This document shows, piece after piece, positions 5,701 through 24,642 of a stretch of DNA of 39,221 nt (positions are counted from its first letter, which is position 1; each line of letters starts with the position of its first letter). A program made the translations under genes and the position numbers. Source of the stretch: Treponema sp. (GTDB lineage: Bacteria; Spirochaetota; Spirochaetia; Treponematales; Breznakiellaceae); the NCBI GenBank assembly GCA_031290325.1, contig JAITNU010000028.1, positions 1 through 39,221 on the forward strand, read 5' to 3'. The notes beneath the pieces were generated by a model. The model was not told where the DNA came from. It saw nothing but the letters and a program-made list of their open reading frames with translations, and made no database searches.

Positions 5701-6276
5701 TTACCAATTCTCCCCCAGCACTTCAAAGTAGTCCTGAGGATGCACACAGGCTGGACATACCTTTGGCGCCTCGGTCCCTTCATGGATATACCCGCAGTTA
5801 AGACAGCGCCAAAAGGTGCTCTTGTCCTTCTTGAATACCCTGCCGGCATCCAGATTGTCCTTGAGCTGCTGATACCGCCTGGCATGCTGCTTTTCCGCTA
5901 CCGAAATAGCTTCAAACACATCGGCAATGGCGCCGAACCCCTCTTCCCGTGCGGTCTTGGCAAAGGCAGGGTACAGCTCCTGCCATTCATGAGCTTCACC
6001 ACCGGCAGCGGCCCTGAGGTTCTCCGCAGTTGTACCGATAAGCCCTGCGGGAAAAGACGCCTCAATGGTGAGATCCCCGCCTTCAAGAAACTTAAAAAAC
6101 CGTTTGGCATGTTCCTTTTCCTGCTCCGCAGTTTCGGTAAAGACCTGGAATATCTGAATATACCCCTCTTTTTTAGCCACACTGGCAAAATAGGTATACC
6201 GGTTCCTCGCCTGGGACTCACCTGCAAAGGCGATGAGCAGATTTTTTTCGGTTTGAGTTCCCTTTACACTTGCCAT
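5701..6276 (-). CDS. Rubrerythrin
   Basis: N-terminal ferritin-like diiron region (LLIAFAGESQARNRYTYFA, EQEKEHAKRFFKFLE) and C-terminal rubredoxin-like CLNCGYIHEGTEAPKVCPACVHPQDYFE. Confidence 0.93.
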   Translation of the reverse strand: MASVKGTQTEKNLLIAFAGESQARNRYTYFASVAKKEGYIQIFQVFTETAEQEKEHAKRFFKFLEGGDLTIEASFPAGLIGTTAENLRAAAGGEAHEWQELYPAFAKTAREEGFGAIADVFEAISVAEKQHARRYQQLKDNLDAGRVFKKDKSTFWRCLNCGYIHEGTEAPKVCPACVHPQDYFEVLGENW

Positions 6277-6400
6277 TCCTATGCTCCTTACAAAAAATTA
6301 TTTTTTGCTTCTTTCAAAACCAGATTAGTTTCGTAAAGAATACTTCTATTCAGTATATGCCTTTTCCCCCTGATTTATCAACTCACCTTACGCACAGTCC

Positions 6401-6451
6401 GCGGATTAACGCGGATTAACGCGGATTTCCAATCCGTGAAAATCCGCGTAA
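6401..6451. repeat. Tandem GCGGATTAAC units plus inverted repeat (ACGCGGATTT … AAATCCGCGT)
   Basis: gcggattaac gcggattaac gcggattt-ccaatccgtga-aaatccgcgt; 10-bp perfect arms at 6419-6428 and 6440-6449. Confidence 0.85.
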
Positions 6452-6555
6452 CATGAGTGAAAAGTGTAACCGCAAAGGACGCATGAATAGATATTGATAA
6501 GATAGTGAAATAAGCATATAGTGGTGAAAATTAGCGAACAAAAAAGGAGTTTCGC

Positions 6556-8130
6556 ATGAATCTTGAAGCTGTTAATGTAGGCATTTGGTCGGTGGTACCG
6601 CCGATCATCGCCATCGCGCTGGCGCTCATCACCAGGGAGGTGATCTTTTCCCTGGTGCTGGGCATCATGTCGGGCGTACTGATCTACTGTTTTGGCGCAG
6701 GACTGGGCTTGATGGCCATCTTCAACACGACCGTTGACGTGATGGTAAACAGTGTATCGGGTAACGCCTCGATGATCATCTTCCTGTCGATGCTGGGGGC
6801 CTTGGTCGCCCTGATAACCCGTGCCGGAGGCTCCCTGGCCTATGGCAACTGGGCCTCCCGCAAGCTCAAGAGCAGACGGAGCGCCGGGCTTCTCACTGCG
6901 CTGCTGGGCATCCTCATCTTCATTGATGACTACTTCAACTGCCTCACCGTGGGTACCGTGATGAAGCCGGTCACCGACCGCTACAAGATCAGCCGCGAGA
7001 AGCTGGCCTACCTCATTGACGCCACTGCCGCGCCGGTCTGCGTCATCGCACCGATTTCCTCGTGGTCAGCCTCGGTGGTGGCCTACTACCCCACGGAATC
7101 CGGCATCACCGGTATGCAAGCCTTCGTTACGGCCATACCGATCAACCTGTACGCCGTGCTGTCCCTCATCATGATCCTGTGGATCGCCACGAAGAAAAAC
7201 GCTGACTTTGGCCCGATGGCCCGGGCCGAAAAGCGTGCGCTGGAGATGGACACCCTCCAGGACGATTCCATCGCAATGCAGGACGACATTGCCCGCCTTT
7301 CGGTGTCCGAAAAGGGCACGGTACTCGATCTCATCGTGCCGGTACTTTTCCTCGTGGTCTTCTGCATCGCCGGGATGCTTTTCTACGGCGGCCTCTGGGA
7401 CGGCACAGGCAAGTCCCTGTACCAGGCCTTCGGCGACACCGACGCCGGCATGGCCCTCTCCCTCGGCGGCTTCTGCGCGATCCTCGCGTCGTTCTTCATC
7501 TATGTGCCGCGTGGCCTCGTTAAGTTTGTCGATTTCTTTGCCAGCATCGTCGCCGGTGTCAAGGCAATGGTACCCGCCATCCTGATACTCACCCTCGCGT
7601 GGACCATTGCCGGCGTTTGCCGCAACCAGCTTCAAACCGGCCAGTACATCGCCGACGTGGTACAGAACTCCGCGATGCCCGTGGGCCTCATTCCGGCGAT
7701 CATGTTCCTCTGCGCCTGCGGCATCTCCTTTGCCACCGGCACCTCCTGGGGTACCTTCGGCATTCTCATCCCGATCACGATCAACGTGTGCGACCTTGTA
7801 GCGCCCTATCTGTCGATCATCAGCCTCGCAGCGGTGATGGGCGGCTCGGTCTTCGGCGATCACTGTTCGCCCATCTCTGACACCACGATCCTCTCATCCA
7901 CCGGCGCAGGCTGCCGCCACATCGACCACGTATCCACGCAGATACCCTACGCCCTCACCGTGGCAACCGCTTGTTTCATCGGTTACATCATCTCCGGCTT
8001 CACCGGCCACCTGGGTTTCGGCGTTGCCGTGGGCATCGCGCTGCCTGTTTCGCTGGCCATACTCTTCGGGTTGCTGCTGGTGCTACCCAAGGTCATAGGC
8101 GCACATAAGAGGAGATTGGTAACAAGATAA
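6556..8130 (+). CDS. Na+/H+ antiporter, NhaC family
   Basis: 524 aa polytopic protein; FATGTSWGTFGILIPI and GDHCSPISDTTILSSTGAGCRHIDHVSTQIPYAL typical of NhaC-type antiporters. Confidence 0.88.
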   Translation: MNLEAVNVGIWSVVPPIIAIALALITREVIFSLVLGIMSGVLIYCFGAGLGLMAIFNTTVDVMVNSVSGNASMIIFLSMLGALVALITRAGGSLAYGNWASRKLKSRRSAGLLTALLGILIFIDDYFNCLTVGTVMKPVTDRYKISREKLAYLIDATAAPVCVIAPISSWSASVVAYYPTESGITGMQAFVTAIPINLYAVLSLIMILWIATKKNADFGPMARAEKRALEMDTLQDDSIAMQDDIARLSVSEKGTVLDLIVPVLFLVVFCIAGMLFYGGLWDGTGKSLYQAFGDTDAGMALSLGGFCAILASFFIYVPRGLVKFVDFFASIVAGVKAMVPAILILTLAWTIAGVCRNQLQTGQYIADVVQNSAMPVGLIPAIMFLCACGISFATGTSWGTFGILIPITINVCDLVAPYLSIISLAAVMGGSVFGDHCSPISDTTILSSTGAGCRHIDHVSTQIPYALTVATACFIGYIISGFTGHLGFGVAVGIALPVSLAILFGLLLVLPKVIGAHKRRLVTR

Positions 8131-8133
8131 CAC

Positions 8134-8162
8134 TTGACAAGAAAGATAGATATATCTATAAT
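8134..8162 (+). promoter_or_regulatory. sigma70 promoter TTGACA-N17-TATAAT upstream of the hydrolase
   Basis: TTGACA 8134-8139, 17-nt spacer, TATAAT 8157-8162; SD-like aaggag just before the ATG at 8188. Confidence 0.8.
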
Positions 8163-8187
8163 TCTACGAGGGTTATAAGGAGACCTT

Positions 8188-9120
8188 ATGGCGTTTAAGG
8201 AATTGGATTTTCTATCATACAACGGACGGGACCAGGTGAAAGCCTGGATATATACGCCGATCCGCAAGCCCCGTGGTATCGTGCAGGTGGTCCACGGCCT
8301 GGGAGAACATTCACGGCGGTATCTGCACCTCATACTCAAACTTAATGAGGCGGGTTTTGTGGTAAGTGCCGATGATCATGTGGGGCATGGGAAAACTGCC
8401 GCTGATTCCAATACCTGGGGGGATTACGGCGACAAGGGTTATATCACCACCACGGAGGATGAAAAGAGCCTCCACGACATCGTCACCGCGGCCTATCCCG
8501 GATTACCCTTTATCATGTTCGGACACAGTTGGGGGTCAATGATCGGCCGGAGCTTTGCCGCCAGATATGGCACTTTGTTGAAGGCGCTGGTGATCTGCGG
8601 TACCTGCGGTGTCATAGAGGAGATAGAAAGCGTCTCTGGGGAACTCAAGACCCTCATTGATGCAGGCAAGGGTGGTGAACGGGATCCGAAATTCCTGGGC
8701 CTTATGTTTGGAGGCTGGACAAGCAGGTATGAAAATCCCAAGACCCCCAGTGACTGGATCTCGGGGGATAGCGATGTGGTGGCAGACCATGGGGCTGATC
8801 CGTTCAACAACTTCTACAATGTCCCCACGAACCAGTCCAACTACGATCTTACCGAGCTGGTGTATCGGATCACCGGCCTGGGGTGGGCGGAAAAGGTCCC
8901 CAGGGAGCTTCCCATCTACAACATTGCCGGGGATCAGGACCCGGTGGGCAATTACGGCGAAGGGGTCTACGCGGTCAGTAACTGGCTTGCGGTCACCGGG
9001 CACAAACGGGTTACGACGCAGCTCTACTCAGGTCACCGCCACGAGATTCACAATGACCGGGATATCCGGGAAGCGGTGACCGACGGGATAATCGCTTTTA
9101 TCCATGGGGAAGTCCTTTAG
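8188..9120 (+). CDS. Alpha/beta hydrolase, monoacylglycerol lipase / serine aminopeptidase S33-like
   Basis: VVHGLGEHSRRY, nucleophile elbow GHSWGS, late DQDPVG and GHRHEIHND acid/His positions. Confidence 0.88.
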   Translation: MAFKELDFLSYNGRDQVKAWIYTPIRKPRGIVQVVHGLGEHSRRYLHLILKLNEAGFVVSADDHVGHGKTAADSNTWGDYGDKGYITTTEDEKSLHDIVTAAYPGLPFIMFGHSWGSMIGRSFAARYGTLLKALVICGTCGVIEEIESVSGELKTLIDAGKGGERDPKFLGLMFGGWTSRYENPKTPSDWISGDSDVVADHGADPFNNFYNVPTNQSNYDLTELVYRITGLGWAEKVPRELPIYNIAGDQDPVGNYGEGVYAVSNWLAVTGHKRVTTQLYSGHRHEIHNDRDIREAVTDGIIAFIHGEVL

Positions 9121-9206
9121 CAAGTGCTGCTTTCACAGAGCAAGCGCAACGTTAAAAATTGTGGTTTTTCCATAGCTTGAGCGTTTATTGCTTTTATAAA
9201 CCATAT

Positions 9207-12173
9207 TCAGGGAGTTTTGCGTGAACGGATAGGTCGCAGTTCTGCCTCGCTCACCAGGGCGGGATCGTTGATGCCCGCAGGCAGTTCCCGGCCTTCCTCG
9301 ATTTCCACTTCCTCTTCCTCGTAGACCACGGTTTCTGGAGGCGGCGCCATAGCGTGCCGGGCAGAATCCTCGTTTTCCAGACGTACTGAAATCACCTTGG
9401 TTACCCCCGACTCTTCCATGGTAACTCCCAGGAGGGTACTGGCGCCGGTAACGGTTTTCTTGGTATGGGTGATGATGATGAACTGGCTGGCGCCGCCGAA
9501 TTCCCGGAGGATCTGGACAAAGCGGTTTACATTGGCTTCATCCAGGGCAGCGTCAATCTCGTCGAGGAGGCAGAAGGGACTGGGCTTGACCATGTAGGTT
9601 GCAAAGAGGAGTGCCACTGCCGTCATGGACCGCTCCCCGCCTGAGAGGAGATTGATGTTTTCCAGTTTTTTCCCCGGAGGCTGGGCGTAGATTTCGATCC
9701 CCGATTCCAGGATGTGGTTAGTATCCGACAGTTTGAGTTCTGCCCTGCCGCCGCCGAAGAGACGGCGGAACATGTTGTGAAAATTTTTCTTTATCTTGTT
9801 GTAGGTTGCAAGGAACAATGCCGATGATTCGGCCCGTATTTCTGCGGTAATGTTTGCAAGATCGTCCCGGGCCTTACTCAGGTCCGCAAGCTGACTGGAG
9901 AGAAAATCGTACCGTTCCTTGGTTTCGGCAAATTCCTCAGGCGCCATGAGGTTCACGGAACCGAGGTCTTTAAGAATCGACCGGGCATCGGCAAGTTTTT
10001 CCCGCAGTTCCGAGGCTGGGGCGGTGATGGTGCTGATCCGTTCCTCAAACTCCAGGAGGTCCCGGGAATGGGTCTCCCGGAAGTTGTTCTGGATGTTCCT
10101 GATTTCCGTCTCAGACTGGACCAGTTCCAGGTGTATCCGCTCAAGACTTTCCTGGACCCTGGCGAGTTCCATGGTCCGCTTCTTGATGGTCTCCTGTTTT
10201 CCCGCCACATCCCCGTTCCGCATTTGTATGTCCTGCTCCAGCTTTTCTAGTTCCCCGCTCAGGGCAAAGCCTTTCCGTTCGATGTCCGCAAGGTCCGATT
10301 CGGTATCGCTGATCCGTTCCTCGATTTCCTCGAAACGCTTACGGTCCAGGAAGAGTTCATCCTGGACGGTCTTGCGGAGGGCCTCCTGGCCCGCTAATTC
10401 CCGGCGGATCAGCTTGGCCTGTTCTTCAGCGGACTGGGCCTGGGCGCTCATCCGCGCCTGGTTTACCTGTAGTTCCGCCAGGGTCGTCCGGTATTCGTCT
10501 ATTTTGGCGCTCAGGTTTTCATTGTCCCCTCTGAGGGCGGCTATCCGTTCCCGCCGCAGGGCAACCCCTTCCCTGGCAGCACGGATCTGGGCATCATATC
10601 CCCGCTTCTTGGTGATGATCCCTTCGGGGGCAAGGAAATCATCCAGAAAGGAGGGGGTACTTTTCCGGTACGCCTCAAAGAGGGAACCGGCCTTATCCGC
10701 GCTTCCCGCTGCTGTTTCAAGGCTCGTTGCAAGTCCTTCGGCAATACGCTTGAGTTCCGTGGCTCCCAGAGGCTGCCCCCCTGCCACGGCCCGATCTGCC
10801 GCCTCGGTTAAGTCCCGGATCAGGCTTTCCCGGCCTGCAAGGAAGATTTTGATGACCCCTAAGGTCTCGTACAGTTCCGCCTCAATACGCTTCCGCTCGG
10901 TTGCCGAATACCCCGCCTCTTTGAGGCCCGCGTCCAGGGCGGCTACTATATCGTCGGTGATGGCTTCCAGTTCATGCTCATAGCCAGTCCGTTCTTTTTC
11001 AAGGCCCCGGATTTCCTCTTCAGCCCGGCGGGCGGCGGCCTCGTTTTCCCCGATTCGGGCGGCAGTAAGCCGGATGTTTTCCTCGAAAGAGGCGATATTT
11101 TCCGCGAGGGCCTGAACCTTCTTGCGGAGGTCTTGTACCACCCCATCCTGCTCTGCTGCGTCCTCGATGAGTTCCTCAATCTTGCTATTCACGCCCCGTT
11201 CCCGGCCCTCGTTCTGCTGGATCTTAGCCTTGCTCTCGTTTCGTTGTTCCGCGAGTAAGCGGGCCTCCTTCTCTCTGGCGTTCTTTTCCACCATAAGGCC
11301 ATAGATGTTCTTCTGGTACTCGACGATTTTTTCTTCCATAGAGTTCACCACATCCATGTTTTCTTCCAGGGACTTGCTCACCGCGTCCAGCTCGGCCCGG
11401 ATCGTATCCCGCTCGGCAGTCCGCTTGGTAAGCCCCCCCTCCCGTGCGTCCCGCTCATACTTGAACTGTTTCAGTTTGAGGAGCTGAATATCCAATTCAA
11501 ACTGAAAGACCGCTTCCCTCAAGGTCCGGTATTGCAGGGTTTTATCGGATTGCACCTTGAGGGTATCGTAGGAGCGCTTCACCTCCCCCAGAATTCCCTC
11601 AACCTGGCGCATATTCTCCTCGGTTTTCACGAGTTTCCGCTCTGCCTCGGCGCTTTTCACCTTGAATTTGGTGATCCCCGCGGCTTCCTCAAACAAATAC
11701 CGCCGCTCATCAGGCTTGGAAGAGAGGATCTGGTCGATTTTGCCCTGTTCCATCACCGAATAAGCCGCCTTTCCCACCCCGGTGTCCCAGAACAGCTCCC
11801 GTACCTCTTTGAGCCTGACCTGTGTGGTATTGATATAGTATTCACTCTCCCCGGACCGGTAGAGCCGCCGTTTGATCTGGACTTCAGGCATGTCAATAGG
11901 GAGCAGCCCCGCGTCATTGGCCAGGGTCAGGGTTACTTCCGCCACATTGAGGGGCTTCCGGTTCTCAGTACCGTTGAAGATCACGTCCTCCATCTTCTCT
12001 GCCCGCATGGCCCGGGATGCCTGTTCTCCCAGTACCCACTTTATCGCGTCCACTACATTGGACTTACCGCAGCCGTTTGGCCCCAAGAGGGCGGTTATCC
12101 CGTCGGTAAATACCATCTGGGTACGGTCGGCAAAGGACTTGAAGCCAAAGATATCAAGATTTTTCAGGAACAA
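9207..12173 (-). CDS. smc: Chromosome segregation protein SMC (non-canonical central region)
   Basis: Walker A GPNGCGKSNVVDAIKWVLGEQ, signature LLSGGERSMTAVALLFA, Walker B CLLDEIDAALDEANV; probable TTG start at 12173 (FLKNLDIFGFKSFADR). Confidence 0.93.
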   Translation of the reverse strand: MFLKNLDIFGFKSFADRTQMVFTDGITALLGPNGCGKSNVVDAIKWVLGEQASRAMRAEKMEDVIFNGTENRKPLNVAEVTLTLANDAGLLPIDMPEVQIKRRLYRSGESEYYINTTQVRLKEVRELFWDTGVGKAAYSVMEQGKIDQILSSKPDERRYLFEEAAGITKFKVKSAEAERKLVKTEENMRQVEGILGEVKRSYDTLKVQSDKTLQYRTLREAVFQFELDIQLLKLKQFKYERDAREGGLTKRTAERDTIRAELDAVSKSLEENMDVVNSMEEKIVEYQKNIYGLMVEKNAREKEARLLAEQRNESKAKIQQNEGRERGVNSKIEELIEDAAEQDGVVQDLRKKVQALAENIASFEENIRLTAARIGENEAAARRAEEEIRGLEKERTGYEHELEAITDDIVAALDAGLKEAGYSATERKRIEAELYETLGVIKIFLAGRESLIRDLTEAADRAVAGGQPLGATELKRIAEGLATSLETAAGSADKAGSLFEAYRKSTPSFLDDFLAPEGIITKKRGYDAQIRAAREGVALRRERIAALRGDNENLSAKIDEYRTTLAELQVNQARMSAQAQSAEEQAKLIRRELAGQEALRKTVQDELFLDRKRFEEIEERISDTESDLADIERKGFALSGELEKLEQDIQMRNGDVAGKQETIKKRTMELARVQESLERIHLELVQSETEIRNIQNNFRETHSRDLLEFEERISTITAPASELREKLADARSILKDLGSVNLMAPEEFAETKERYDFLSSQLADLSKARDDLANITAEIRAESSALFLATYNKIKKNFHNMFRRLFGGGRAELKLSDTNHILESGIEIYAQPPGKKLENINLLSGGERSMTAVALLFATYMVKPSPFCLLDEIDAALDEANVNRFVQILREFGGASQFIIITHTKKTVTGASTLLGVTMEESGVTKVISVRLENEDSARHAMAPPPETVVYEEEEVEIEEGRELPAGINDPALVSEAELRPIRSRKTP

Positions 12174-13165: not shown

Positions 13166-16100
13166 TTAAACCGGCGCCACAAAGCCTTCGATGTTCCGGG
13201 AAAGCAGCCTGTCCAGGAGCGGCTTGGGATACCCTGCTTCAAGGAACTTGTGGTAGTAGGTTTCCGCCTGGGGATGCTTGTTGGCAAAGGCCCGCGCAAG
13301 GAGCGCATCAGCATAGGGGGCGCTCCGATCCGGGTCATCAAGTTCCCCCCGCCGAAGCTCCCCGATATACCGGCCGGCTCTTTCAAAGGCCGCATCCAGG
13401 AGCTTTACCCAGGCTGCCTCATCATCGTCATAGATAAACCGCAGGGCACGGCTCAACTCTCCGATATCAATAAAGGCCGTGGCCCAGCGGCGGTCCCAGG
13501 TCTTTTTCCCATCGGGAATCGGGCCGTGTTCGATTTTATAGATATCGTTAAGCCACTTATAGTGCTCCCGGCCCAGGCGCTGATACTGCTCAAAGAACTC
13601 TGCGCTGGAAAGGTGGCGGGAAGCGGCGTACAGGGCGGACCATGACTCAGGATCAATGGCATCCTCGGCAATAGCCCCTTCGGAGATGGTGGCAAAGACC
13701 TCATTTTTAAGGGGGGTATCTGCCACAGACAGGCAGCGGAGGATCATATTCAAATCCTCCAGATCAATTTCCTGCACGAATTCACCGGAAAGGGTCTGTT
13801 CAAGAAACCGAATGCCCACCTCTTCATCCCTGGTAGCCAGGACCCGCAGCAAACTCATGAGTTTATCACGTTTTGTTTTATACTCTGGAAGCAGGGCCTG
13901 TGCCTCGTCAATCAATTTTTGGGCAAGCGCCGCGCTGGGAATAACGCAGAGCGCCGAAAAGGTATCAAGGGGGTCTTTGTTAAGGGCCTCAACCTGATAG
14001 GCTTCCCAAGCTCTGGGATCATCGGCGGCAAGGGCATGACAGGCTGTCAGACACACCCCGGCCGTATCATCGGTGGTAAAGCCGCAGAGCAGGGGTATGT
14101 ACTCCGCCCCCCATCCCTGCCGGCCCGCGGCAATAATGGCCTTGAGCACCTCATGACGGACCCGCTCATCTTCGTCTTTTGCAAAGGAACGCAACAGGTC
14201 CTGATAGGCGCTGCGTTCCAGCTTTGCGGCGCCAAAGGCCATAAGCCCATAAGCGGCCGCAAGGCGCACATTGCGGTCCTCATCTTTGATAAAGCCTTCG
14301 AGGGCTGTCTTATACGGTGCGGTGTTGTCCTTATGGAGCAGCCGGTGAGCCAGGGCGCTAATGGCCGCTTTACGCACTTCCCGGTTATCATCGGACCTGT
14401 AGTCCCCCAGCATGGCGGCATACCGGTCATCATCCCAGGCTTGGGCGCCGTGGGTAATGAGCGCGTTCTGCACTGCAAAACGCACATCGTTATCCCGGTC
14501 TTTGGCAAAGCCCTGGAGGGCTGTTTCATACCGGGAGGCTTCCCATTTCTGAGAACCCAGGGCAATCAGGGGCTTGACCACCCCAAGGCGTACGCTCCAC
14601 TCGCCGTCCCGGGCAAAGGCTTCGATGGCCTTTTCATAAGGCGCGGTATTGTCCTTTTGAAGCAGCGCGTCCCCCAGGGCGGTAACCGCTGTTTTCCGTA
14701 CATCGCTGTCCCCGTCACCGGCATAGTCCTGCAAGGCCGCCGCATACCGAACATCATCCCAGACATGGGGGGCATACTCAATGATCGTTTTAAGAACCGC
14801 CAGCCGCCGGGTCCAGTCGCTGTCTTTGGCAAAGAGCCGGAGTACTGCCTCGTACTGGGAGTTGTTGTTTTCGTGCTGCGCCTTTTGCAGCAGCTTGTCA
14901 AAAGTCCGTTTCCTGAGCCGCGGATCTTTGTCCTTGACAAAGCTCCCCAGAAGGGCGGTGTACTGTACGCTATCCCAGGGAGCTCCGAGCTCACTCAGGG
15001 AATTCAGCACCAGGCTGCGGACTTCGCTGCTTTTATCCTTGGCAAAGCCCCGCAGGGTCTCAATATAGGCCCCTTCGTCTTCGGTGTGCCGGATATATGC
15101 CAGCAGCAGTTCTATGGCCTGCTGATGGGTTCCGCTGTTTTTCGCAAAGGCGAGGAGTATCTCTTTGTAGTTCTTATGGTTAAACTGCGGCGCTAAGGGA
15201 ACCAGGGCATCCAGGGCAGTCCGTGCGTTTTTCCCATCCTGATCATGGCAAAAGTCCACCAAGGCGGTCGCATAAGCATGGGAATTCTCCCAGCCTACTG
15301 CACACCGGGCAATCAGTGCGCTCAGGGCCGCATAGCGCACATCATGGTCCCGGTCATTGCAGAGTTTCGTAAAGATCTCACCGCTCTTCCGGGCATCCCA
15401 TTCGGCGTGTTTTGCCAGTAAGTTCACCGCGTCCCGGCGGATCTTCCAGCTTTGGTTTGGGGTGATAAAGGCCATGAGGGCCGTTTCATAACGGTGGGGA
15501 TACCTAAGGCCGGTAAAGGCATCGAATACCCTTTGTCTTATATCTTCGGAACTATCCCCGCTAAAGGACGTAAGCAGCTCCACATACCGGTCTGTTTCCC
15601 ACTGAGCTCCCCGTTTGATGAGTTCTTCGAGTGCCCCAAGGCGTACCGTGTCGCTGCCCTCAGCAGCAAAGGAGCGGAGTATCTGCTCAATCCGCTCATT
15701 ATCCGCCTGCAGAGACACCCAGCCGATCAAGCCTTCAACCACCCCATAGAGCACGTTGCTGCTACCCTCAGCGGCAAAGGAACGGAGTATCTTCTCAGTC
15801 CACTTATCATCCTGCTGTTCCCGTGCACGGCCTAGCAAGGCACGCAATGCCGTCTCCCGCACATCGTTGTCGCTGTCGCTGCAAAAGGGGGTAAAGGTTT
15901 TGTCGTATTTGACCCTGCCCCACTTGGCAATACCTGCCAGTTTTGTCAGGGCATTCACCACCCCCTGGCGTACGGTCCAGCCATAGCGATAGTTCCCATC
16001 AGCGTCCCTGGCGGCATAGGTGCTGATGGTCTCCTCGTACTTGGGATACGCCGCCAACAGATCCAGGATGGCCACGATAACATCACTCTGGGAATTGTGG

Positions 16101-16717
16101 GACAGGATGGCTTCAGCCCGGGGAAGAACCGTATCCCCCCGACGCTCATAGAGGTAGTGCAAAAACCAGATGATATTGCTGCTTTGGGGGGTAAGGGCAG
16201 CTTCGACAAAGGGCAGTATCAGGTCTCCCAGGGCGGGGATGATGGTCTCTTTGATATACTGGGCGCCGCTTGCGCCATTGCTGATTGCCCGGGCATAGGC
16301 GGCAAAGAGGCGGACATCCCGATAGGTTCCCCTGGTATAGAGTTCCTCAAGCCGGCTTGTGGCAGCTCCATAGCCATTGGCGATGCTGTCCACCATATCC
16401 TTGAGGGTTAAGTAGGATAGTTCTTCTTCCTCAAAGGGTAGCGCGGGATATGGCATATCCTGGGTCCTGGTACCTGGATCCGTTGCCCCCAGGGTGTGCC
16501 TAAGGGAGTGAAGCAGTACCTGTGCTTCCATAATTGATTCCGGGCTGGCCTTGCTTACCACGGTGGCAAGACATTCGACCAGGGCGGTATAGGCGGGGAT
16601 ATTCTCGCTGAGTTTGGTCAGGGTGAGAATCTGCAAGTGGGCAGAGCCTTTTGCCAGTTTGCTCCCCCCCATACAGATACTTAAAAGCCTACGGTCTAGT
16701 TCATGTAATAATGCCAT
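13166..16717 (-). CDS. HEAT-like repeat protein (1183 aa)
   Basis: Many ~36-aa repeats of the form RYxxALxxFAKDxDxxVRxxxxxALxxxGxxxWDD. Confidence 0.85.
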   Translation of the reverse strand: MALLHELDRRLLSICMGGSKLAKGSAHLQILTLTKLSENIPAYTALVECLATVVSKASPESIMEAQVLLHSLRHTLGATDPGTRTQDMPYPALPFEEEELSYLTLKDMVDSIANGYGAATSRLEELYTRGTYRDVRLFAAYARAISNGASGAQYIKETIIPALGDLILPFVEAALTPQSSNIIWFLHYLYERRGDTVLPRAEAILSHNSQSDVIVAILDLLAAYPKYEETISTYAARDADGNYRYGWTVRQGVVNALTKLAGIAKWGRVKYDKTFTPFCSDSDNDVRETALRALLGRAREQQDDKWTEKILRSFAAEGSSNVLYGVVEGLIGWVSLQADNERIEQILRSFAAEGSDTVRLGALEELIKRGAQWETDRYVELLTSFSGDSSEDIRQRVFDAFTGLRYPHRYETALMAFITPNQSWKIRRDAVNLLAKHAEWDARKSGEIFTKLCNDRDHDVRYAALSALIARCAVGWENSHAYATALVDFCHDQDGKNARTALDALVPLAPQFNHKNYKEILLAFAKNSGTHQQAIELLLAYIRHTEDEGAYIETLRGFAKDKSSEVRSLVLNSLSELGAPWDSVQYTALLGSFVKDKDPRLRKRTFDKLLQKAQHENNNSQYEAVLRLFAKDSDWTRRLAVLKTIIEYAPHVWDDVRYAAALQDYAGDGDSDVRKTAVTALGDALLQKDNTAPYEKAIEAFARDGEWSVRLGVVKPLIALGSQKWEASRYETALQGFAKDRDNDVRFAVQNALITHGAQAWDDDRYAAMLGDYRSDDNREVRKAAISALAHRLLHKDNTAPYKTALEGFIKDEDRNVRLAAAYGLMAFGAAKLERSAYQDLLRSFAKDEDERVRHEVLKAIIAAGRQGWGAEYIPLLCGFTTDDTAGVCLTACHALAADDPRAWEAYQVEALNKDPLDTFSALCVIPSAALAQKLIDEAQALLPEYKTKRDKLMSLLRVLATRDEEVGIRFLEQTLSGEFVQEIDLEDLNMILRCLSVADTPLKNEVFATISEGAIAEDAIDPESWSALYAASRHLSSAEFFEQYQRLGREHYKWLNDIYKIEHGPIPDGKKTWDRRWATAFIDIGELSRALRFIYDDDEAAWVKLLDAAFERAGRYIGELRRGELDDPDRSAPYADALLARAFANKHPQAETYYHKFLEAGYPKPLLDRLLSRNIEGFVAPV
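14120..14765 (-). repeat. Higher-order 108-aa (~324 bp) duplication within the HEAT-repeat gene
   Basis: WDDVRYAAALQDYAGDGDSDVRKTAVTALGDALLQKDNTAPYEKAIEAF… versus WDDDRYAAMLGDYRSDDNREVRKAAISALAHRLLHKDNTAPYKTALEGF…, offset 108 residues. Confidence 0.75.
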
Positions 16718-16750
16718 GTATTTCCCTATTTGTTAGTTTTTATTTCGCAC

Positions 16751-18232
16751 CTAAATCAAGCGGATAATCGCCTTATCGGTAACCAGGGAAAGGGGAACAG
16801 CATAGAGCATATCCTGATCCATATCCTGCTTAAAGCGGGCCACTAGGGTCTTACCTTCAACCTGCTCCCGGGAAAGACTCCGGATCCGGTTGCCATAGAC
16901 CGTGGGTTTCAGGGCAATCCGCTTCCCCTGCGGGTCAAACACCGAGAGGTTCTGCTCCCTATCAATACCCATGCGGGTGATATGTAAGGCGAAAACCGGC
17001 TCCTGAGCTGCCAGAGGGTTCCGGATCTGGACCTTAACCGCCTCGATCACCTCGTTAAAATCAGCGGCCCCTGCAGTCGCAAGGGCGGTAAAGTCTTCGG
17101 GGTTCAGGTCCCGCCAGGCCTGCCGTTCCCACCGCACCTGGGGGTTTTTATCTCCCGGATAGATGTAGAGTTCACTGGCGATCAGCACCTTAAAGAAACT
17201 GTCCTGGGGCGGCTTGTTTAACCGGTAGGGCCTCACGTTCCTGGTCATGTAGATATCCCTGGTACCCAGGGACAGCCAAATACCCTCATCAACATACTGT
17301 TTCCTGACATCGTCTTCATAAACCGAAAAGGCACACTGCACGAGTTCCACACCGGTCCGCATACAGCCCTTTGCTTTAAGTTCGGTGAGTTTCCAGGTAT
17401 AACCAATCTGTTCCTCAATAGCAGAATTGAGCATATCAGCTTCGGCAGTGTGGGTCAGCTCCGGGAATGCCGCATAATCCGCCTGCTTGTGTTCAAGGTA
17501 GGTCCGGCTCTTTTTCAGCAAGGCATAGAGATAGGTGAGCTGCCTGAGCGCAGGTTCAAAGTCTTTGCTGAATGGAGGTAAAGAAAGGCCCTTTTTTCCC
17601 CGGGACTGCTTGAGGTCCGCAGGTTCAGCAGCACTGGTATTTTTCTGTCCTGTCAGGATGAGGGTCATGAGTTCGGTAAACCCTGCCTGAATACCGCTTA
17701 TATTGTAATTCCCCAGCTCTTGTATCTGGGTATCAAAAGCATCGGTGATGGCATAGATCCCGGTAAGCACGATGTTGTGCAGCATTTTCTCCCCCAGGGT
17801 AATGCCCTCAAGCTGAACCGTACAGTTCTTTGCCTCACTGAGGGCCTTTGCCCTGGTGATAAGCACCGGTTTCGCCTCTTTTTCCGCCTTTGCCTTATCC
17901 TTGTCACGGGCTTTGAGCAGGGAAGGCGGAATCGGGCATACCGCAAAGGGATGTCCCACAAACAAGGCATACAAAAGGCCGATGCTGTGCTTACAGGGCT
18001 TATGCCGGTTTGGACAGGTGCATCGGCCCAGGGGCCTTTCAGGGTCCAGGAAATCAACCGAGCAATGATAGGCTTCCGCACCGCTTCCAATACAACTCCC
18101 CCACACCAGCGACTCATCCTCACTCCGGTTCAGGGTGATAAAATTCCCCTGCTCCACCAGTTCCCTGGCAGTTGCCTCGGTATGAGGATTACCTGCAAAT
18201 AGACTCATAATATCTTGTTCTGTTACCGTCAT
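16751..18232 (-). CDS. SWIM zinc-finger domain protein
   Basis: CxCx6CxH motif CTCPNRHKPCKHSIGLLYAL (codons ~18022-17987) following YHCSVDFLDPERPLGR. Confidence 0.88.
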   Translation of the reverse strand: MTVTEQDIMSLFAGNPHTEATARELVEQGNFITLNRSEDESLVWGSCIGSGAEAYHCSVDFLDPERPLGRCTCPNRHKPCKHSIGLLYALFVGHPFAVCPIPPSLLKARDKDKAKAEKEAKPVLITRAKALSEAKNCTVQLEGITLGEKMLHNIVLTGIYAITDAFDTQIQELGNYNISGIQAGFTELMTLILTGQKNTSAAEPADLKQSRGKKGLSLPPFSKDFEPALRQLTYLYALLKKSRTYLEHKQADYAAFPELTHTAEADMLNSAIEEQIGYTWKLTELKAKGCMRTGVELVQCAFSVYEDDVRKQYVDEGIWLSLGTRDIYMTRNVRPYRLNKPPQDSFFKVLIASELYIYPGDKNPQVRWERQAWRDLNPEDFTALATAGAADFNEVIEAVKVQIRNPLAAQEPVFALHITRMGIDREQNLSVFDPQGKRIALKPTVYGNRIRSLSREQVEGKTLVARFKQDMDQDMLYAVPLSLVTDKAIIRLI

Positions 18233-18530: not shown

Positions 18531-19112
18531 CTACGCCCCCAGAACCCTATATAAAAGTGCCGCCACAGATGTAAAAATAAGGGATAAAAGCCCCATGGAG
18601 ATGAGCATCAGGGGAACGCCCCGCAGGAAGGAGGGGACCGCTTCCCGGTCGGATCGTATGCGGATCTCCTTGAGCAGGAACAGTGAAAACAACACCCCCA
18701 GGGCAAATCCCAGGGAGAGGATACAGGCTTCGGCAAAGGTAACGGCCAGGTGTATGGTTAGTATGAGGGAGCTGAGGGCAAGACCGTTGTAGGCGGAAAG
18801 GGCGGTAAACATCTTTGACGCCGGTACTATCCGGGGGAGGAACCGGGTACACAGCAGTTCAAGTCCCATACAGACCAGGGCGCTTAAGGGGAACAGCAAC
18901 ACATATTCAAGAAATCCAAAGGAGAGGGGGGATAAGATATACGAAAAAACAACCCAGAGAAACAGAACGGATACAAAGATCACCCCCCCTTGAAAGAAGG
19001 GGATTGGAATGGACTCCTCCTGCCCCATCTCCTGTATGACCAGGGGGAATTGCAGTATCAGGTTGAGGGAAAGGCTTGAAAAAACAGCCAGCGCTACCAG
19101 GGTACTCATCAT
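18531..19112 (-). CDS. rnfA: Rnf/Nqr-type electron transport complex subunit A-like
   Basis: 193 aa with about six hydrophobic segments, last gene of the C-D-G-E-A order; sequence very divergent. Confidence 0.7.
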   Translation of the reverse strand: MMSTLVALAVFSSLSLNLILQFPLVIQEMGQEESIPIPFFQGGVIFVSVLFLWVVFSYILSPLSFGFLEYVLLFPLSALVCMGLELLCTRFLPRIVPASKMFTALSAYNGLALSSLILTIHLAVTFAEACILSLGFALGVLFSLFLLKEIRIRSDREAVPSFLRGVPLMLISMGLLSLIFTSVAALLYRVLGA

Positions 19113-19753
19113 GAGCGCTCCGAAAGGTACTCTTTTCGCAGGTTCCGGAAAATAGCTACCCCGTACCCGAAGAGCACCAAGGCCCCTGCAGAGGTCGAGA
19201 GGACCTTGATGGGGAGGAGGGACTCTCCATTCGCCCCATCAACCAGGGAAATAATCCCCGTCGCGCCTCCAGGCAGTGAAAGGGACATAAACCCCAGGGG
19301 TTCCCGAATGAGCGCAAAGGCTACGATAAAGATGCCCAGGGTAATCGCCTCCAGTAAAGCCTTCATGAGGACCTCTTGAATGACCAGGGAATCATCAGGC
19401 ATATCAAGGTACCTGAATAAATCGGAACCAACGCAGTAACCGGGGATCAGCATGATAAGATACGAAACGCTCATGGTCAGGAACGGGCTGAGGAGCCAGA
19501 GCACCAATAGGAAGCAGCTCCCGATGAGGCTTGACAAGAAGATAAGCACAATGATCTTTCCCTTTTTGGGGAAATAGGGCTGGGCAAAAAAGGCCGCAAT
19601 AGCGGTCAATTCGTACACCCAGATCAAGGCTCCCACCACCGCAAGGGCAAAGGCAAGGTGGCTTGAAGCCATGATTAAAAGCCCGGCCCCGGCCAAGGTG
19701 GAAAGGGGCGCATGGGAACCCCAGAGCAAATACCGCTGAAAACGCCGTTTCAT
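19109..19753 (-). CDS. rnfE: Rnf complex subunit E-like
   Basis: 214 aa polytopic protein; LREPLGFMSLSLPGG-type segment (ALIREPLGF); position between rnfG and rnfA; 4-nt overlap with rnfA. Confidence 0.7.
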   Translation of the reverse strand: MKRRFQRYLLWGSHAPLSTLAGAGLLIMASSHLAFALAVVGALIWVYELTAIAAFFAQPYFPKKGKIIVLIFLSSLIGSCFLLVLWLLSPFLTMSVSYLIMLIPGYCVGSDLFRYLDMPDDSLVIQEVLMKALLEAITLGIFIVAFALIREPLGFMSLSLPGGATGIISLVDGANGESLLPIKVLSTSAGALVLFGYGVAIFRNLRKEYLSERS

Positions 19754-20248
19754 TTATTCTTCCTCCTGATCGTACTCTTCCGCGTCGTGTTCTTCCACAA
19801 GAACGGCAGTCTGGGGGATCCGCGCTGCCTCTGCTTCAATGCGCCGCAGGTAGATGTTGAGGATACCCCGGGGAAGCTGTTCCAGAATCTGTTTGGAATA
19901 CCGGTTTACCGGAATGAGGTCCCCTTCAGCAACGGTTCCTGTAGGGGAGACCACCGCGATACAGGGGGCCTGAATGCCGTCGGCCATGATGGAAAAAACC
20001 AGGGCCCGGTTTTCAGAATCCACCAGGGTATACCATGTTCCCAGGGAGATCGCCCCTTCGGGAAGCCCCCTCCGGGGGATTGGGGCATCAAGGCGCCGGG
20101 AATCTTCTTGCCATACCCTGGCGAGGCTGCTCCAGAGTATCTGGGTACGGATCGGCTGGGTAAAAAACCAGAGCAAGCAGCCGATGAGGATCAGCCCTGC
20201 AATCCATCCGATTAAAATACCCATATCTTTAAGATCATCATGCCGCAT
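19754..20248 (-). CDS. rnfG: Rnf complex subunit G-like, truncated/divergent, no flavinylation motif
   Basis: Single N-terminal TM (GILIGWIAGLILIGCLLWFFTQP) plus small periplasmic domain, between rnfD and rnfE; overlaps the rnfD 3' end. Confidence 0.6.
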   Translation of the reverse strand: MRHDDLKDMGILIGWIAGLILIGCLLWFFTQPIRTQILWSSLARVWQEDSRRLDAPIPRRGLPEGAISLGTWYTLVDSENRALVFSIMADGIQAPCIAVVSPTGTVAEGDLIPVNRYSKQILEQLPRGILNIYLRRIEAEAARIPQTAVLVEEHDAEEYDQEEE

Positions 20249-21245
20249 ACAAACTCCGGCTTTCAAGGTCCCGGATCAGCGGGACCAGGGCATTAATCAG
20301 CGTAATGGCAAAAAAAGCGCCATAAACTTCCGAACCCTGATACCGGAACAGATAGGTACAGCAGGCTGCCAGGAGGGCCGTGATAAGGGACCCCCGCGGT
20401 GATTTCGGTCCGGTAACGGGGTCGGTGCCCAGGAGAAATGCCGCCACCATGGTTCCCCCTGAAAAAAAGCCGAAGAGTATATCCCCGGCGCCCAGGGCGC
20501 CCCCAAAGGGCAAGGCTCCAAAGATTCTGATGAGCAGCCCGTACATACCCAGGTATACCGCCGGCACCCAGGATCGGGTTACCTTGAACGCGATAATGAT
20601 AATGGTTCCCCCTAAAAAGGCAAGGAGTCCCCGGTCCGCGATAATACCGGTGGTAGCAGTGGTAAGCAGATCGATATACCCTCCCGGTAATGCCGACCTG
20701 GTGATTGAAAAAACCGTTTTATTAAGCCACGCCGCTGCTATGCTGTCAAAGGAACGAAATTCCGGCTGAAAGTGTTCAAGACTTTCCTGCAAAAACGCGG
20801 CGGGAGAAATCTCCAGGGCCGTATTGAACGCGGCAGGCCATGAAAACCGGATAAAAAGCCACCCTCCAAGTGCGGGATTCAGCCAGTTTGCTCCCAGGCC
20901 GCCAAAACTATGCTTCACTACGGCCATGGCAAAGACGGCGCCAATAGCCGCATATAAAGGATGTACCGAATTGGGGAGGAGAAGTGCCAAGAGAAGGGCT
21001 GAGGTGATGGCGCTTCCATCCCGCAGCATCCCTGCCTTATCGGTTCTGAAGTAGATCAGAAATTCGGTGAAGATTGCCGCAATCACCACCGTAAGGGCGA
21101 TAATCAGAGAAGCAAACCCATCGGTTAAGGAAGACTGAAAAATCGTCATACCGGCGCAGAGGCTGACCAGCCACATCCGTCCTGCGGTTGGCCGGCTCAG
21201 ATTGATATGAGGTTTCTGAAAGAAGCGGATATACGGTTCATGCAT
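20238..21245 (-). CDS. rnfD: Rnf complex subunit D
   Basis: DGSAITSALLLALLLPNSVHPLYAAIGAVFAMAVVKHSFGGLGANWLNPALGGWLF and FSGGTMVAAFLLGTDPVTGPKSPRG are RnfD/NqrB family signatures. Confidence 0.9.
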   Translation of the reverse strand: MHEPYIRFFQKPHINLSRPTAGRMWLVSLCAGMTIFQSSLTDGFASLIIALTVVIAAIFTEFLIYFRTDKAGMLRDGSAITSALLLALLLPNSVHPLYAAIGAVFAMAVVKHSFGGLGANWLNPALGGWLFIRFSWPAAFNTALEISPAAFLQESLEHFQPEFRSFDSIAAAWLNKTVFSITRSALPGGYIDLLTTATTGIIADRGLLAFLGGTIIIIAFKVTRSWVPAVYLGMYGLLIRIFGALPFGGALGAGDILFGFFSGGTMVAAFLLGTDPVTGPKSPRGSLITALLAACCTYLFRYQGSEVYGAFFAITLINALVPLIRDLESRSLYAA

Positions 21246-22533
21246 GGTTGTTCTCCCCTGCCTGCAGGATAGTGGTACTCAGGGGAAGCCGTGAAGGGCA
21301 CACCACTTCACAGCAGCCGCAGCCGTGACATGCTCCTGCCGTGCCGGCGTGTCTTCCTCCCTTTATCCGCTTGAATAAGGTTTCCGGATCCAGTCCCACC
21401 GGGCATACGATTCTACATTCCCCGCATCCGATACAGCTTCTGGCCACAGTCCCCCCGATCTGTCCCTTGAGGAGGGCCATGACCGCGTAACTCGTCTTCA
21501 TCACTGGCTCGTCCAGATCAAGCACGGTGCGGCCCAAGAGGGGAGAACCGATGGCGATGCGCCGGGGTTCTTTGACAAAGCCCCCACATTCGGCAAAAAC
21601 ATCCCTGATCCTGGTCCCTATCCTCACCTTCATCACCTGGGGGGTCTTGATCGCCGAACCGCCCACCGCGATGTACCGGTCGAGGATGGGCTTTCTCAAG
21701 GTTACCGCGTCGTGGATTGCCGCCAAGGTAGCAGGCCCCTGGATGAAGAGCCTCCCTAATTCAAGGCCCTCTTTTTTTTCATACGCTCTGAGGACCAGTT
21801 CCAGTTCCCGCCGGTTCCGCTGGGGATACCGGGAACCGACCAGGATCAGGGAAGCGGGAATATCCCAGGATTTTGATTCAGCAAGTAACAAAGTCCCCAG
21901 CTCCTGCTCTTTATGGGAAACGGCGTATACAATACGGCTCGCCGGCCCGGCCCGGCTCATGATAACGCTCCCCTCCACCACCGCCTTGAGCCGTTCCCGG
22001 CAGAGGACATAATCGGCGGCGAGCCAGGGGTCATCAAACACGCAGCGGACAACCAGGCTCATCGGTTCCTGGACAGCATTGAGCGCAACAAACACATCTG
22101 CCAGGGGACGGCCTTCCCCTTCCATTTCCACAATGCCGTATTCCGTGATGAGGCGCTGCATTTCCGAGGGCATCATCTGTTCCCAGGGGTAACGTACCTC
22201 GGGCTTGCCTAGTTTTTCAAAACTCCCCTCCATACGGATGACCAGGGCATCGTTGCTATTTCCCCCGGCCATTTCCCAGGAAACCATGCGAACCACCTGA
22301 CCGGGAACCGTGGCATGGACATTTGCCGAGAGCGGCCCCCGGGCCCGGCCTATGAGCATGCCTTCCTTCACGTAATCCCCCACGGAAACCAGGGGCTGGG
22401 CCTTGGTTCCGGTTTGTTGAGCCAGGGGTATCACTGAAAGCACTGGCAGAAAGGCGATAACACCAGCATCTTTGGCAGGAACCGTGGCATCCTCAAAGTG
22501 TATCCCCCCGCGGGGAAATGAATATACTGTCAT
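21238..22533 (-). CDS. rnfC: Rnf complex subunit C
   Basis: N-terminal FPRGGIHFED, barrel-sandwich GDYVKEGMLIG, two 4Fe-4S motifs CIGCGECRIVCP and CHGCGCCEVVCP. Confidence 0.9.
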   Translation of the reverse strand: MTVYSFPRGGIHFEDATVPAKDAGVIAFLPVLSVIPLAQQTGTKAQPLVSVGDYVKEGMLIGRARGPLSANVHATVPGQVVRMVSWEMAGGNSNDALVIRMEGSFEKLGKPEVRYPWEQMMPSEMQRLITEYGIVEMEGEGRPLADVFVALNAVQEPMSLVVRCVFDDPWLAADYVLCRERLKAVVEGSVIMSRAGPASRIVYAVSHKEQELGTLLLAESKSWDIPASLILVGSRYPQRNRRELELVLRAYEKKEGLELGRLFIQGPATLAAIHDAVTLRKPILDRYIAVGGSAIKTPQVMKVRIGTRIRDVFAECGGFVKEPRRIAIGSPLLGRTVLDLDEPVMKTSYAVMALLKGQIGGTVARSCIGCGECRIVCPVGLDPETLFKRIKGGRHAGTAGACHGCGCCEVVCPSRLPLSTTILQAGENNHA

Positions 22534-24080
22534 GCGGCTATCCGTTTATCATTATATACCAACATCTTTTTCTTTTTTCCCTTACCCTGCTTCCGCTGGA
22601 ATATAGCGGGAATACAAAATCCCAGGACCAGGGTTTCCGGGATAAACTCAGGCACCTCGGTCGTATTGCTACCAGGAGCATGTTGAGCATCAGTATGCGC
22701 TGAATTGCCTAGAAATTCCATAAGCCCTGCCAGGGGAAAGGGGGGAATTTCCTGTTTTTTTTGATTTTTATCTTTTTTGTCAATATCGTCATAGACCGGG
22801 AGGGCCTGGGTATACGCTCCGGTAATGAGTCCATCTTCACCAATATAATACCGCACATAGGTTGATGCATCACCGTCCCCCAGGGGGGTTATGGAAAAAG
22901 AAGCCTGGAACATCGCATGACGTTCATATTCAGTAGCGTCAATTACGCATAAGAAATGGTCCTCCAGGCTGGCAGGCTGATGATAGGGGTTTACATTTCC
23001 AAGCATCCTGGGTACCAGCAAGGCCTGGAACGAAACCAGGGCAAAGGGAATGATGGTCCGGGGAAAAAAGGCAGGGTGTTCCTCCATGATGGTTACCGGT
23101 GTAAACCGTACATGATCCTTCCCCTGGTTTGATTCGGCGAAAAGGCTTGCCCAGAAGACTGCGAAGCAGCATACCAGGTCCATGATACCCAAAACCGGCG
23201 GGATCTTCCCCATACAGCAGAGTATCCCATAGAGGAGCACATATACCAGAGATAGGAACCAGGGCCGTTTAGCAGGGCGGTCTTTATACCCATACCGCAG
23301 AGAAACCAGCAGCTCCCGCAGCGGCTGGGTCAAGGCGCTGAACAAGGCGGTCAGTGCCGCAGCCAGGGTAAGCCCCAGGGGACCTGCACATACAAAGGCC
23401 CCCAGACTCGGAAACAGGGCGGCGGTGATGAGGGGGGCATCTGAAAGAAACAGGCTTACCACCGCAGCCAGGGCAAAGAGGATACAATAAAACAGGAGGG
23501 GCTCTTCTGCACGCCCCAGATATTCAATTGAAAAGGGGATATCCCCTAAAGCCGCGGTAAGGGATTGCTCAAAATACACGATTCCAGGGGGTTTACCAAG
23601 ACCAATACCGCTCGTATTCCACCAGGCAGATAACGTCGATAGTACCCCATGTATATCTGTTCTGGTCGTTTTAAAGGCCCCCCTCATTAATTCCCGTGAA
23701 AAGGGAATAAAAAACAGCCGTTTCCCATCGCGGACAAAAAAGGCCTGCAGCCGTTGTGCATACCCGTCATCCCGGGGATCAAAGGTTTCGATCCGCTCCC
23801 GGTACTCCTCCAGGGGGATCTGCGCTAAGGCACCAAAATCATCCAGAAACACCCATTGGGTTGACTCGGAAAGGTAATTGGTGATAGGAGGGTACCTTCC
23901 ACCCAGTCCTCCTGAAAGGGTATCCCCGATAAGCTTGTCAGGGTACGAGGCATCCACCCTCAGCACCGCGTATTTTTCACCAGGTTCCCGGGGCAGGTAT
24001 CCCAGGGCCAAAGAAACCATGCAAGCTCCCAGTCCCAGGGAGAGCAGCACCGCAAGCAGCAGGGACTTTCTGCAGGACAT
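22530..24080 (-). CDS. Hypothetical polytopic membrane protein, coupled to rnfC
   Basis: ~516 aa with several TM segments; stop overlaps the rnfC start (ATGA at 22530-22533). Confidence 0.75.
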   Translation of the reverse strand: MSCRKSLLLAVLLSLGLGACMVSLALGYLPREPGEKYAVLRVDASYPDKLIGDTLSGGLGGRYPPITNYLSESTQWVFLDDFGALAQIPLEEYRERIETFDPRDDGYAQRLQAFFVRDGKRLFFIPFSRELMRGAFKTTRTDIHGVLSTLSAWWNTSGIGLGKPPGIVYFEQSLTAALGDIPFSIEYLGRAEEPLLFYCILFALAAVVSLFLSDAPLITAALFPSLGAFVCAGPLGLTLAAALTALFSALTQPLRELLVSLRYGYKDRPAKRPWFLSLVYVLLYGILCCMGKIPPVLGIMDLVCCFAVFWASLFAESNQGKDHVRFTPVTIMEEHPAFFPRTIIPFALVSFQALLVPRMLGNVNPYHQPASLEDHFLCVIDATEYERHAMFQASFSITPLGDGDASTYVRYYIGEDGLITGAYTQALPVYDDIDKKDKNQKKQEIPPFPLAGLMEFLGNSAHTDAQHAPGSNTTEVPEFIPETLVLGFCIPAIFQRKQGKGKKKKMLVYNDKRIAA

Positions 24081-24084
24081 CACC

Positions 24085-24576
24085 CTATAAATTGGCATAG
24101 GCTGCGGCAATAAAAATACCCAGAAGCGCCCCCACTACCACTTCCAGCGGCGCATGACCATGGACCTCCTTGATCGGGTGGAATTCCGTCTTCAGCCGCT
24201 CCGCCACGTTCCGTCCCAGGATATTGAGCATCCGTGCCTGGATTCCCGAAGAACGGCGTACCCCCATGGCATCCCGCATGACAATGAGGGCGATCCAGAA
24301 AGAGACCACAAACAGATTGGACCCTATACCTGCGCTGAAGGCCACGGAGGTGGTCATGGACGAAACCAGGGCCGCATGACTGGAAGGCATACCGCCGGTA
24401 CGCCAGGCTATAGTCTCCAGTATTTCCCGGGGACTTCTTTTTTTACGGGCATTCAGCACAACGATCACGGTCTTCATAAGCTGGGCAAAAAACCAGCTTG
24501 AAATAGAGGATAAAAAAACAGGATTCTCAAAAAAAGGTTTTAACGATACCGCCCGTATAGACAATGATAACGACAT
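24085..24576 (-). CDS. Divergent PAP2 family protein (YuiD/DUF212-like)
   Basis: GGMPSSHAALVSSMTTSVAF, VMRDAMGVRRSSGIQARMLN, GHAPLEVVVGALLGIFIA. Confidence 0.88.
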   Translation of the reverse strand: MSLSLSIRAVSLKPFFENPVFLSSISSWFFAQLMKTVIVVLNARKKRSPREILETIAWRTGGMPSSHAALVSSMTTSVAFSAGIGSNLFVVSFWIALIVMRDAMGVRRSSGIQARMLNILGRNVAERLKTEFHPIKEVHGHAPLEVVVGALLGIFIAAAYANL

Positions 24577-24642
24577 TATGTAACAATCCATCAGGAAAGG
24601 GCTTTTGTCAAGGTTCCCCTGCTCAGGCGCTGTTTAAGGTAC

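Follow-up and report, generated by a model that had tools for sequence, protein, structure and literature searches.

The window analysed here, a 39,221-nucleotide stretch of the genome of a Treponema species (GenBank assembly GCA_031290325.1, contig JAITNU010000028.1), carries on its minus strand, from 24591 to 18531, a coupled operon of seven genes that encode a DUF212 protein, a membrane protein that we call X, and homologues of the Rnf subunits C, D, G, E and A. Rnf is thought to be among the oldest redox-driven ion pumps; along its solved electron path, ferredoxin is followed by RnfB, the cluster shared by RnfA and RnfE (AE), the flavin mononucleotides (FMN) of RnfG and RnfD, riboflavin, the clusters and FMN of RnfC and, finally, nicotinamide adenine dinucleotide (NAD+). 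We observed that most of the residues that would hold these cofactors are missing from the operon, and that this stripped pattern recurs in about 45 Treponematales genomes. Judged from the sequences, it is very probable that the encoded complex is not a normal Rnf pump.

The genes, in order of transcription, and the cofactor sites within them are as follows, with positions counted along the whole window:

24085-24591, minus strand: DUF212 (divergent PAP2 family) membrane protein, P, first gene of the operon, 168 residues; PF02681, E 1.8e-41.
22530-24110, minus strand: protein X, polytopic membrane protein of a spirochaete family, 526 residues, with an extracytoplasmic domain after the first transmembrane helix.
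21238-22533, minus strand: RnfC-like subunit, 431 residues; TIGR01945, E 1e-67; solved RnfC 7zc6_C, E 8e-87.
22093-22128, minus strand: site of the FMN-binding motif of RnfC, where alignment with canonical RnfC places EMEGEGRPLADV opposite GxGGAxFPTHxK.
22024-22038, minus strand: site of the RnfC motif ECEPY, here FDDPW.
21298-21435, minus strand: two intact CxxCxxCxxxCP [4Fe-4S] motifs of RnfC.
20238-21245, minus strand: RnfD-like subunit, 335 residues, without the covalent-FMN segment (S/T-G-A-T-P-L); PF03116 (RnfD/NqrB), E 4e-59.
20877-20879, minus strand: Asn123 of RnfD, a retained riboflavin ligand residue, equivalent to N123 of Acetobacterium woodii RnfD (9eri_D).
20421-20423, minus strand: Asp275 of RnfD, a retained riboflavin ligand residue, equivalent to D249 of A. 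woodii RnfD.
19754-20266, minus strand: degenerate RnfG-like subunit between D and E, 170 residues, a transmembrane helix and a beta domain without the SGAT flavinylation motif.
19109-19753, minus strand: RnfE-like subunit, 214 residues; profile match to 7zc6_E, E 7e-9; hhalign against canonical RnfE, E 7.6e-13.
19433-19435, minus strand: Cys107 of RnfE, by alignment the retained second cluster cysteine.
18531-19112, minus strand: RnfA-like subunit, 193 residues, both cluster cysteines lost; TIGR01943, E 2.7e-12; profile match to 8ahx_A, E 6e-16.

A preliminary description of this DNA had read the locus as rnfC-D-G-E-A behind a PAP2-like gene and a large membrane protein, and the open reading frames, their order and their overlaps are indeed as it described. 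All neighbouring genes overlap or abut (by 26, 4, 8, 29, 0 and 4 nucleotides from DUF212/X to E/A), and the C, D, G, E and A homologues stand in Rnf operon order, G being linked through intermediates only. The alignment of RnfC to 7zc6_C spans the length of the subunit, and that of RnfD to solved RnfD has an E-value of 3e-43; RnfE scores 17.6 bits against PF02508, below the cut-off of 23.8. Neither G nor X has a relevant family match in Pfam or NCBIfam. In a PDB fold search with the AlphaFold2 model of G (predicted local distance difference test, pLDDT, 84.5), RnfG chains rank 1, 10, 13 and 17, below significance; direct hhalign of its profile against canonical RnfG failed (probability 2.8), and profile comparison connects the two solely through intermediates. 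We assign this protein to RnfG because of its position, the weak fold similarity and this chain of intermediates. No rnfB is found in the operon, and no further CxxCxxCxxxC protein is encoded near it.

Cofactor sites were called from profile alignments in which solved Rnf chains and the canonical Rnf proteins encoded by related genomes served as references; f1 denotes the window's family and f3 that of Treponema pallidum. The reference ligands are those of A. woodii (PMC11889175), where RnfA C25 and C113 and RnfE C25 and C108 hold the intramembrane cluster, RnfD T156 and RnfG T185 each carry a covalent FMN, and RnfD N123 and D249 bind riboflavin; the residues of Clostridium tetanomorphum Rnf match them (PMC9588780). 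In canonical Rnf from the same order these sites are essentially invariant. The three glycines of the RnfC GxGG motif, for example, occur in 32/32 canonical sequences and in all eight intact RnfC that are linked to X; in f1, the first and third glycines are found in none of 30, and most members read E-M-E. ECEPY has likewise been replaced, so that both motifs of the RnfC FMN/NADH site are gone, and in its place f1 has the newly conserved FDDPW (F, D and W in 29/30 each), which argues that this region is still constrained. The eight [4Fe-4S] cysteines of RnfC, which are cluster ligands and not clusters, are retained in 107/107 aligned sequences, canonical and stripped.

In the membrane subunits, the FMN-carrying threonine of RnfD is absent from all 30 f1 sequences, with serine in 15 and a gap in nine, the window being among the latter. 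Where serine occurs it stands in a G-S-P-L context in place of the canonical GAT-P-L; the window protein has no such segment. The G-S-P-L motif, seen in loci L036, L042 and L054 and in other members that together make up about half of f1, is a possible remnant of serine flavinylation. The riboflavin asparagine of RnfD is present at all 46 loci (30/30 in f1, 16/16 in f3), and Asp or Glu occupies the aspartate position in 30/30 and 9/16, respectively. RnfG has no SGAT-like motif in the window's family, and its conserved arginine has arisen anew. Neither RnfA cysteine survives in f1 (0/29 at C25 and at C113), nor does either in f1 and f3 combined (0/45). In f1 RnfE, C25 is likewise lost throughout (0/29) and C108 is kept in 14/29, the window among them, which leaves the window one of the four cluster cysteines. 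The sites that survive, riboflavin and the RnfC clusters, are neighbours along the solved electron path.

The preliminary description had reported the loss of the RnfC FMN/NADH motif, of the RnfD and RnfG flavinylation motifs and of the RnfA cysteines, with the RnfC 4Fe-4S motifs remaining, and the alignments bear it out on each of these points. Its broader statement that nearly every cofactor site looks lost is refined by the one RnfE cysteine and the two RnfD riboflavin residues that persist. Ligands shifted to nearby positions, which it had named as an outcome that would count against it, were searched for and not found as a family feature, and this candidate explanation was rejected; nothing beyond the single RnfE cysteine and the serine remnant in RnfD of some relatives came to light. 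Cysteines one to four residues past the C25 site do occur in RnfA of L046, L056 and T. pallidum and are not common to the rest of their family. We also rejected the idea that motif loss is typical of all spirochaete Rnf, since canonical paralogs retain every site.

The operon is present in 37 relatives from the same taxonomic order, which include Treponema metagenome-assembled genomes from termite guts and Breznakiella homolactica. Each of the 38 loci has C and D, and the remaining genes are found at 31-37; X is present at 31, and DUF212 adjoins X or rnfC at 31, several of the remainder being cut by contig ends. At some f3 loci G lies beyond the reach of the profile, yet an open reading frame occupies its place. 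The ratio of non-synonymous to synonymous substitution rates (dN/dS), estimated from three species pairs, is 0.07-0.42 for every gene of the operon. Because the stripped pattern recurs in so many genomes under purifying selection, it is due neither to chance nor to local decay; order-wide conservation and dN/dS led us to reject local decay and assembly error alike, in line with the earlier argument for selection over random decay.

That description had also suggested a paralog beside a normal Rnf, and this too holds. RnfD matches in 60 relatives are of two classes, one canonical, with E about 1e-100, and one divergent, with E from 1e-18 to 1e-60; most f1 and f3 genomes carry both, and canonical RnfA/E (PF02508) was found in nearly all of 69 genomes tested. 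PF02508 and PF03116 searches had suggested that the window's genome holds no second Rnf. This was rejected when contig C33 proved to end, at 14318-14434 of 14434, with the start of a canonical rnfC whose first 39 residues match the sister species at 100% identity, and since the gene start sits at a contig end, we conclude that the canonical operon was lost in an assembly gap. G032, an f1 genome that is 99% complete, has a single RnfD, which belongs to the divergent class, and a single weak match to PF02508; it may be a second genome with the stripped version only. Besides canonical and stripped RnfD, a third class of RnfD/NqrB homologues (profile positions 15-293, E about 1e-75) occurs in several genomes, at G017:C30, G019:C115, G024:C140 and G030:C1:1923354 and in families f4 and f5. 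The canonical rnfCDGEA of L075 (G038; 6103-10372) has no rnfB-like iron-sulphur gene within its 16.9-kb region, unlike L073 and L074. Outside the window, the window's genome has four FMN_bind matches (C108, C162, C138 and C2) and one ApbE match (C102), which suggest that this organism has extracytosolic flavoproteins.

Around X, the operons of other families form a graded series from complete through intermediate to stripped. Eight loci (L100, L101, L104, L107-L109, L111 and L114) hold a complete DUF212-X-rnfCDGEAB operon with GxGG, ECEPY (ECEPF in L114), the RnfD Thr/Ser, an SGAT-like motif in RnfG and rnfB, and with all four A/E cysteines wherever both subunits were recovered (RnfA was not recovered in L100). 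These operons share with the window X and the Rnf gene order, as well as DUF212 in L100 and L111, and by the tree they are related to it by orthologous descent; unlike the window operon, they have complete cofactor motifs and rnfB. An intermediate state is seen in families f4 and f5: the RnfC FMN motif is gone, the RnfD threonine is mostly kept, the A/E cysteines are kept in some, remnants of the RnfG motif are seen (DALAGAT in L086, TGDTITG in L092), and rnfB is still present in the loci checked (L086, L087, L089, L094, L124 and L125). The stripped state is found in f1, f3 and several other families. Taken as a series of sequences, these states show that the stripped operon descends from a complete Rnf. 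On a tree of C and D, built with the motif columns left out and provisional on account of long branches and uneven composition, loss of the RnfC FMN motif requires one change and that of the four-cysteine site four, and from this we provisionally place the loss of the NADH site first, as a single event, followed by repeated losses of the intramembrane cluster site.

In T. pallidum (G047), the only RnfD lies at 173952-174851. Published variation in tp0151 (rnfD) at position 174174 (PMC7162541) falls within this gene, which identifies it as TP0151. The locus (L055) comprises DUF212 and the adjoining stripped C, D, G, E and A with the same losses as in the window; it is more divergent than the window operon and has no X, and the genome has no canonical Rnf, no PF02508 match and no X. 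In the literature this locus is treated as an Rnf pump: a noncanonical, flavodoxin-linked Rnf was proposed for T. pallidum in mBio in 2020 (PMC7512555), and a 2024 article in Lancet Microbe (PMC11371664) counts TP0151 among the subunits of an Rnf complex to which it ascribes the oxidation of flavodoxin and the build-up of an ion gradient. A search for sequences of this kind with demonstrated Rnf activity, which the preliminary description had said would tell against it, found none; in the publications consulted, the Rnf of T. pallidum is proposed, not demonstrated (PMC7512555). No paper noting its missing sites was found in an incomplete literature search, and earlier notice is possible. The ApbE/Ftp gene and FMN_bind proteins of T. 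pallidum sit away from the stripped operon (L129, G047:C1:622681-622899; G047:C1:863767-864651), so its flavinylation machinery would appear to serve other proteins.

Compared with the Rnf complex (RnfABCDGE; 7zc6, 8ahx, 9eri), the window operon shares the order C-D-G-E-A, homologous C, D, E and A with a degenerate G, both RnfC [4Fe-4S] motifs and the RnfD riboflavin ligand residues; it differs in having no RnfB, no RnfC FMN/NADH motif and no D or G flavinylation motifs, in the loss of both cluster cysteines from A and one of two from E, and in the additional DUF212 and X. The only other known Rnf derivative is Na+-NQR (NqrABCDEF), whose origin is likewise a duplicated rnf operon that lacks rnfB (PMC4014512). 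Its pattern of loss is the opposite: Nqr keeps the membrane cofactors and has lost the FMN and iron-sulphur clusters of RnfC/NqrA, whereas the window operon retains the RnfC cluster ligands and has lost membrane cofactor sites. A family-model search found no NqrF gene in the operon, which is set apart from Na+-NQR by the retained RnfC iron-sulphur ligands as well. By descent, as its sequences place it, the complex is a member of the Rnf/Nqr superfamily; because it fails on RnfB, on the RnfC FMN/NADH site, on RnfD and RnfG flavinylation and on the A/E cluster, we call it an Rnf-derived complex and not an Rnf.

X has no significant match in Pfam, NCBIfam, PDB sequence or PDB fold searches; for its AlphaFold2 model (pLDDT 75.9), the best PDB folds are SecDF/RND-like, at E 0.08 or worse. 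It was found in 128/395 Spirochaetota genomes. Downstream of the operon (13166-18232) lie genes for a 493-residue SWIM zinc-finger protein and then a 1183-residue HEAT-repeat protein; the SWIM gene adjoins the operon in the sister species only.

With no RnfB, no NADH/FMN site, no complete A/E cluster site, no flavinylation site in RnfG and no covalent flavin site in the window's RnfD, ferredoxin:NAD+ ion pumping should no longer be possible. We lean towards the hypothesis that the operon encodes a repurposed, non-pumping derivative of Rnf with a cytoplasmic iron-sulphur/riboflavin remnant, perhaps serving redox-gated transport or sensing. The subunits, X and DUF212 would assemble as a membrane complex whose remaining redox arm, on the cytoplasmic side, would consist of the pair of [4Fe-4S] clusters in RnfC together with the RnfD riboflavin pocket, provided that these sites are occupied. 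RnfC could then form a redox-active cap, either passing electrons to and from flavodoxin, ferredoxin or another soluble carrier or serving as a sensor of the redox state. The fold of RnfD resembles urea/ammonium transporters, with the covalent FMN occupying the outer half (PMC9588780); without that FMN the RnfD core may act as a transporter or channel for some substrate, and the redox state of RnfC, perhaps by way of riboflavin, might gate the transporter-like D/A/E core, a gating model that we regard as tentative and rather unlikely in this specific form. X and DUF212 would be envelope partners of the core in an envelope or transport task. Several observations weigh against this hypothesis. 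The f1 relatives with serine in RnfD might still carry a flavin at that site, the window's RnfE retains the cysteine aligned to C108, and the riboflavin aspartate is not conserved at 7/16 f3 loci, in T. pallidum's own family. T. pallidum and a few others have no X beside their operon, so X is not strictly required, and a DUF212-X pair occurs with no recognised rnf gene adjoining it in L103 (G183; 7286-9376) and L113 (G411; 7153-9319), so that X and DUF212 may form a unit with a job of its own.

That the complex still works as a redox pump through unusual partners, with flavodoxin feeding RnfC, NAD+ being reduced and ions being moved, is what the two publications on T. pallidum propose, and the remaining RnfC iron-sulphur and riboflavin ligands, together with ApbE and separate FMN_bind proteins, accord with it. 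In A. woodii, however, mutation of the AE1 cysteines, the FMN-G residues or riboflavin N123/D249 abolishes ferredoxin-dependent NAD+ reduction and growth (PMC11889175); as equivalent changes have removed the RnfG flavin and transmembrane cluster sites here, along with the NADH/FMN site and RnfB, and as other treponemes already have a complete Rnf for this task, we consider such a pump improbable. The presence of both operons together in nearly all genomes would fit a role in assembling or regulating the cell's canonical Rnf, for instance through mixed complexes with shared subunits; this is made more doubtful still by T. pallidum, where the stripped operon occurs without a canonical Rnf, by G032, which shows no sign of one, and by the fact that all five subunits have a paralog of their own in the stripped version. 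Least credible of all is the view that the operon is a redundant copy that is slowly decaying. Its high divergence might suggest this, as might the loss of cofactor sites several times in parallel, but the frames are intact and overlapping, dN/dS is well below 1, the iron-sulphur cysteines are kept in all aligned RnfC, new conserved motifs have appeared (FDDPW in RnfC, the arginine in G), and the operon has survived in the reduced genome of T. pallidum.

The natural series, with a complete pump at one end and a cofactor-stripped complex maintained by selection at the other, separates the role of Rnf as a scaffold from its role as a redox chain. We see an even chance that the stripped complexes are a third branch of the Rnf/Nqr superfamily, redox-gated or non-redox, which has given up pumping, and that the sole 'Rnf' of T. 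pallidum belongs to it, in which case that organism would have no Rnf pump. This bears on the long-standing question of how the chemiosmotic gradient of T. pallidum is generated. An Rnf pump has been put forward as its source, yet the complex in question, judged from its sequence, is without most of the Rnf redox sites.

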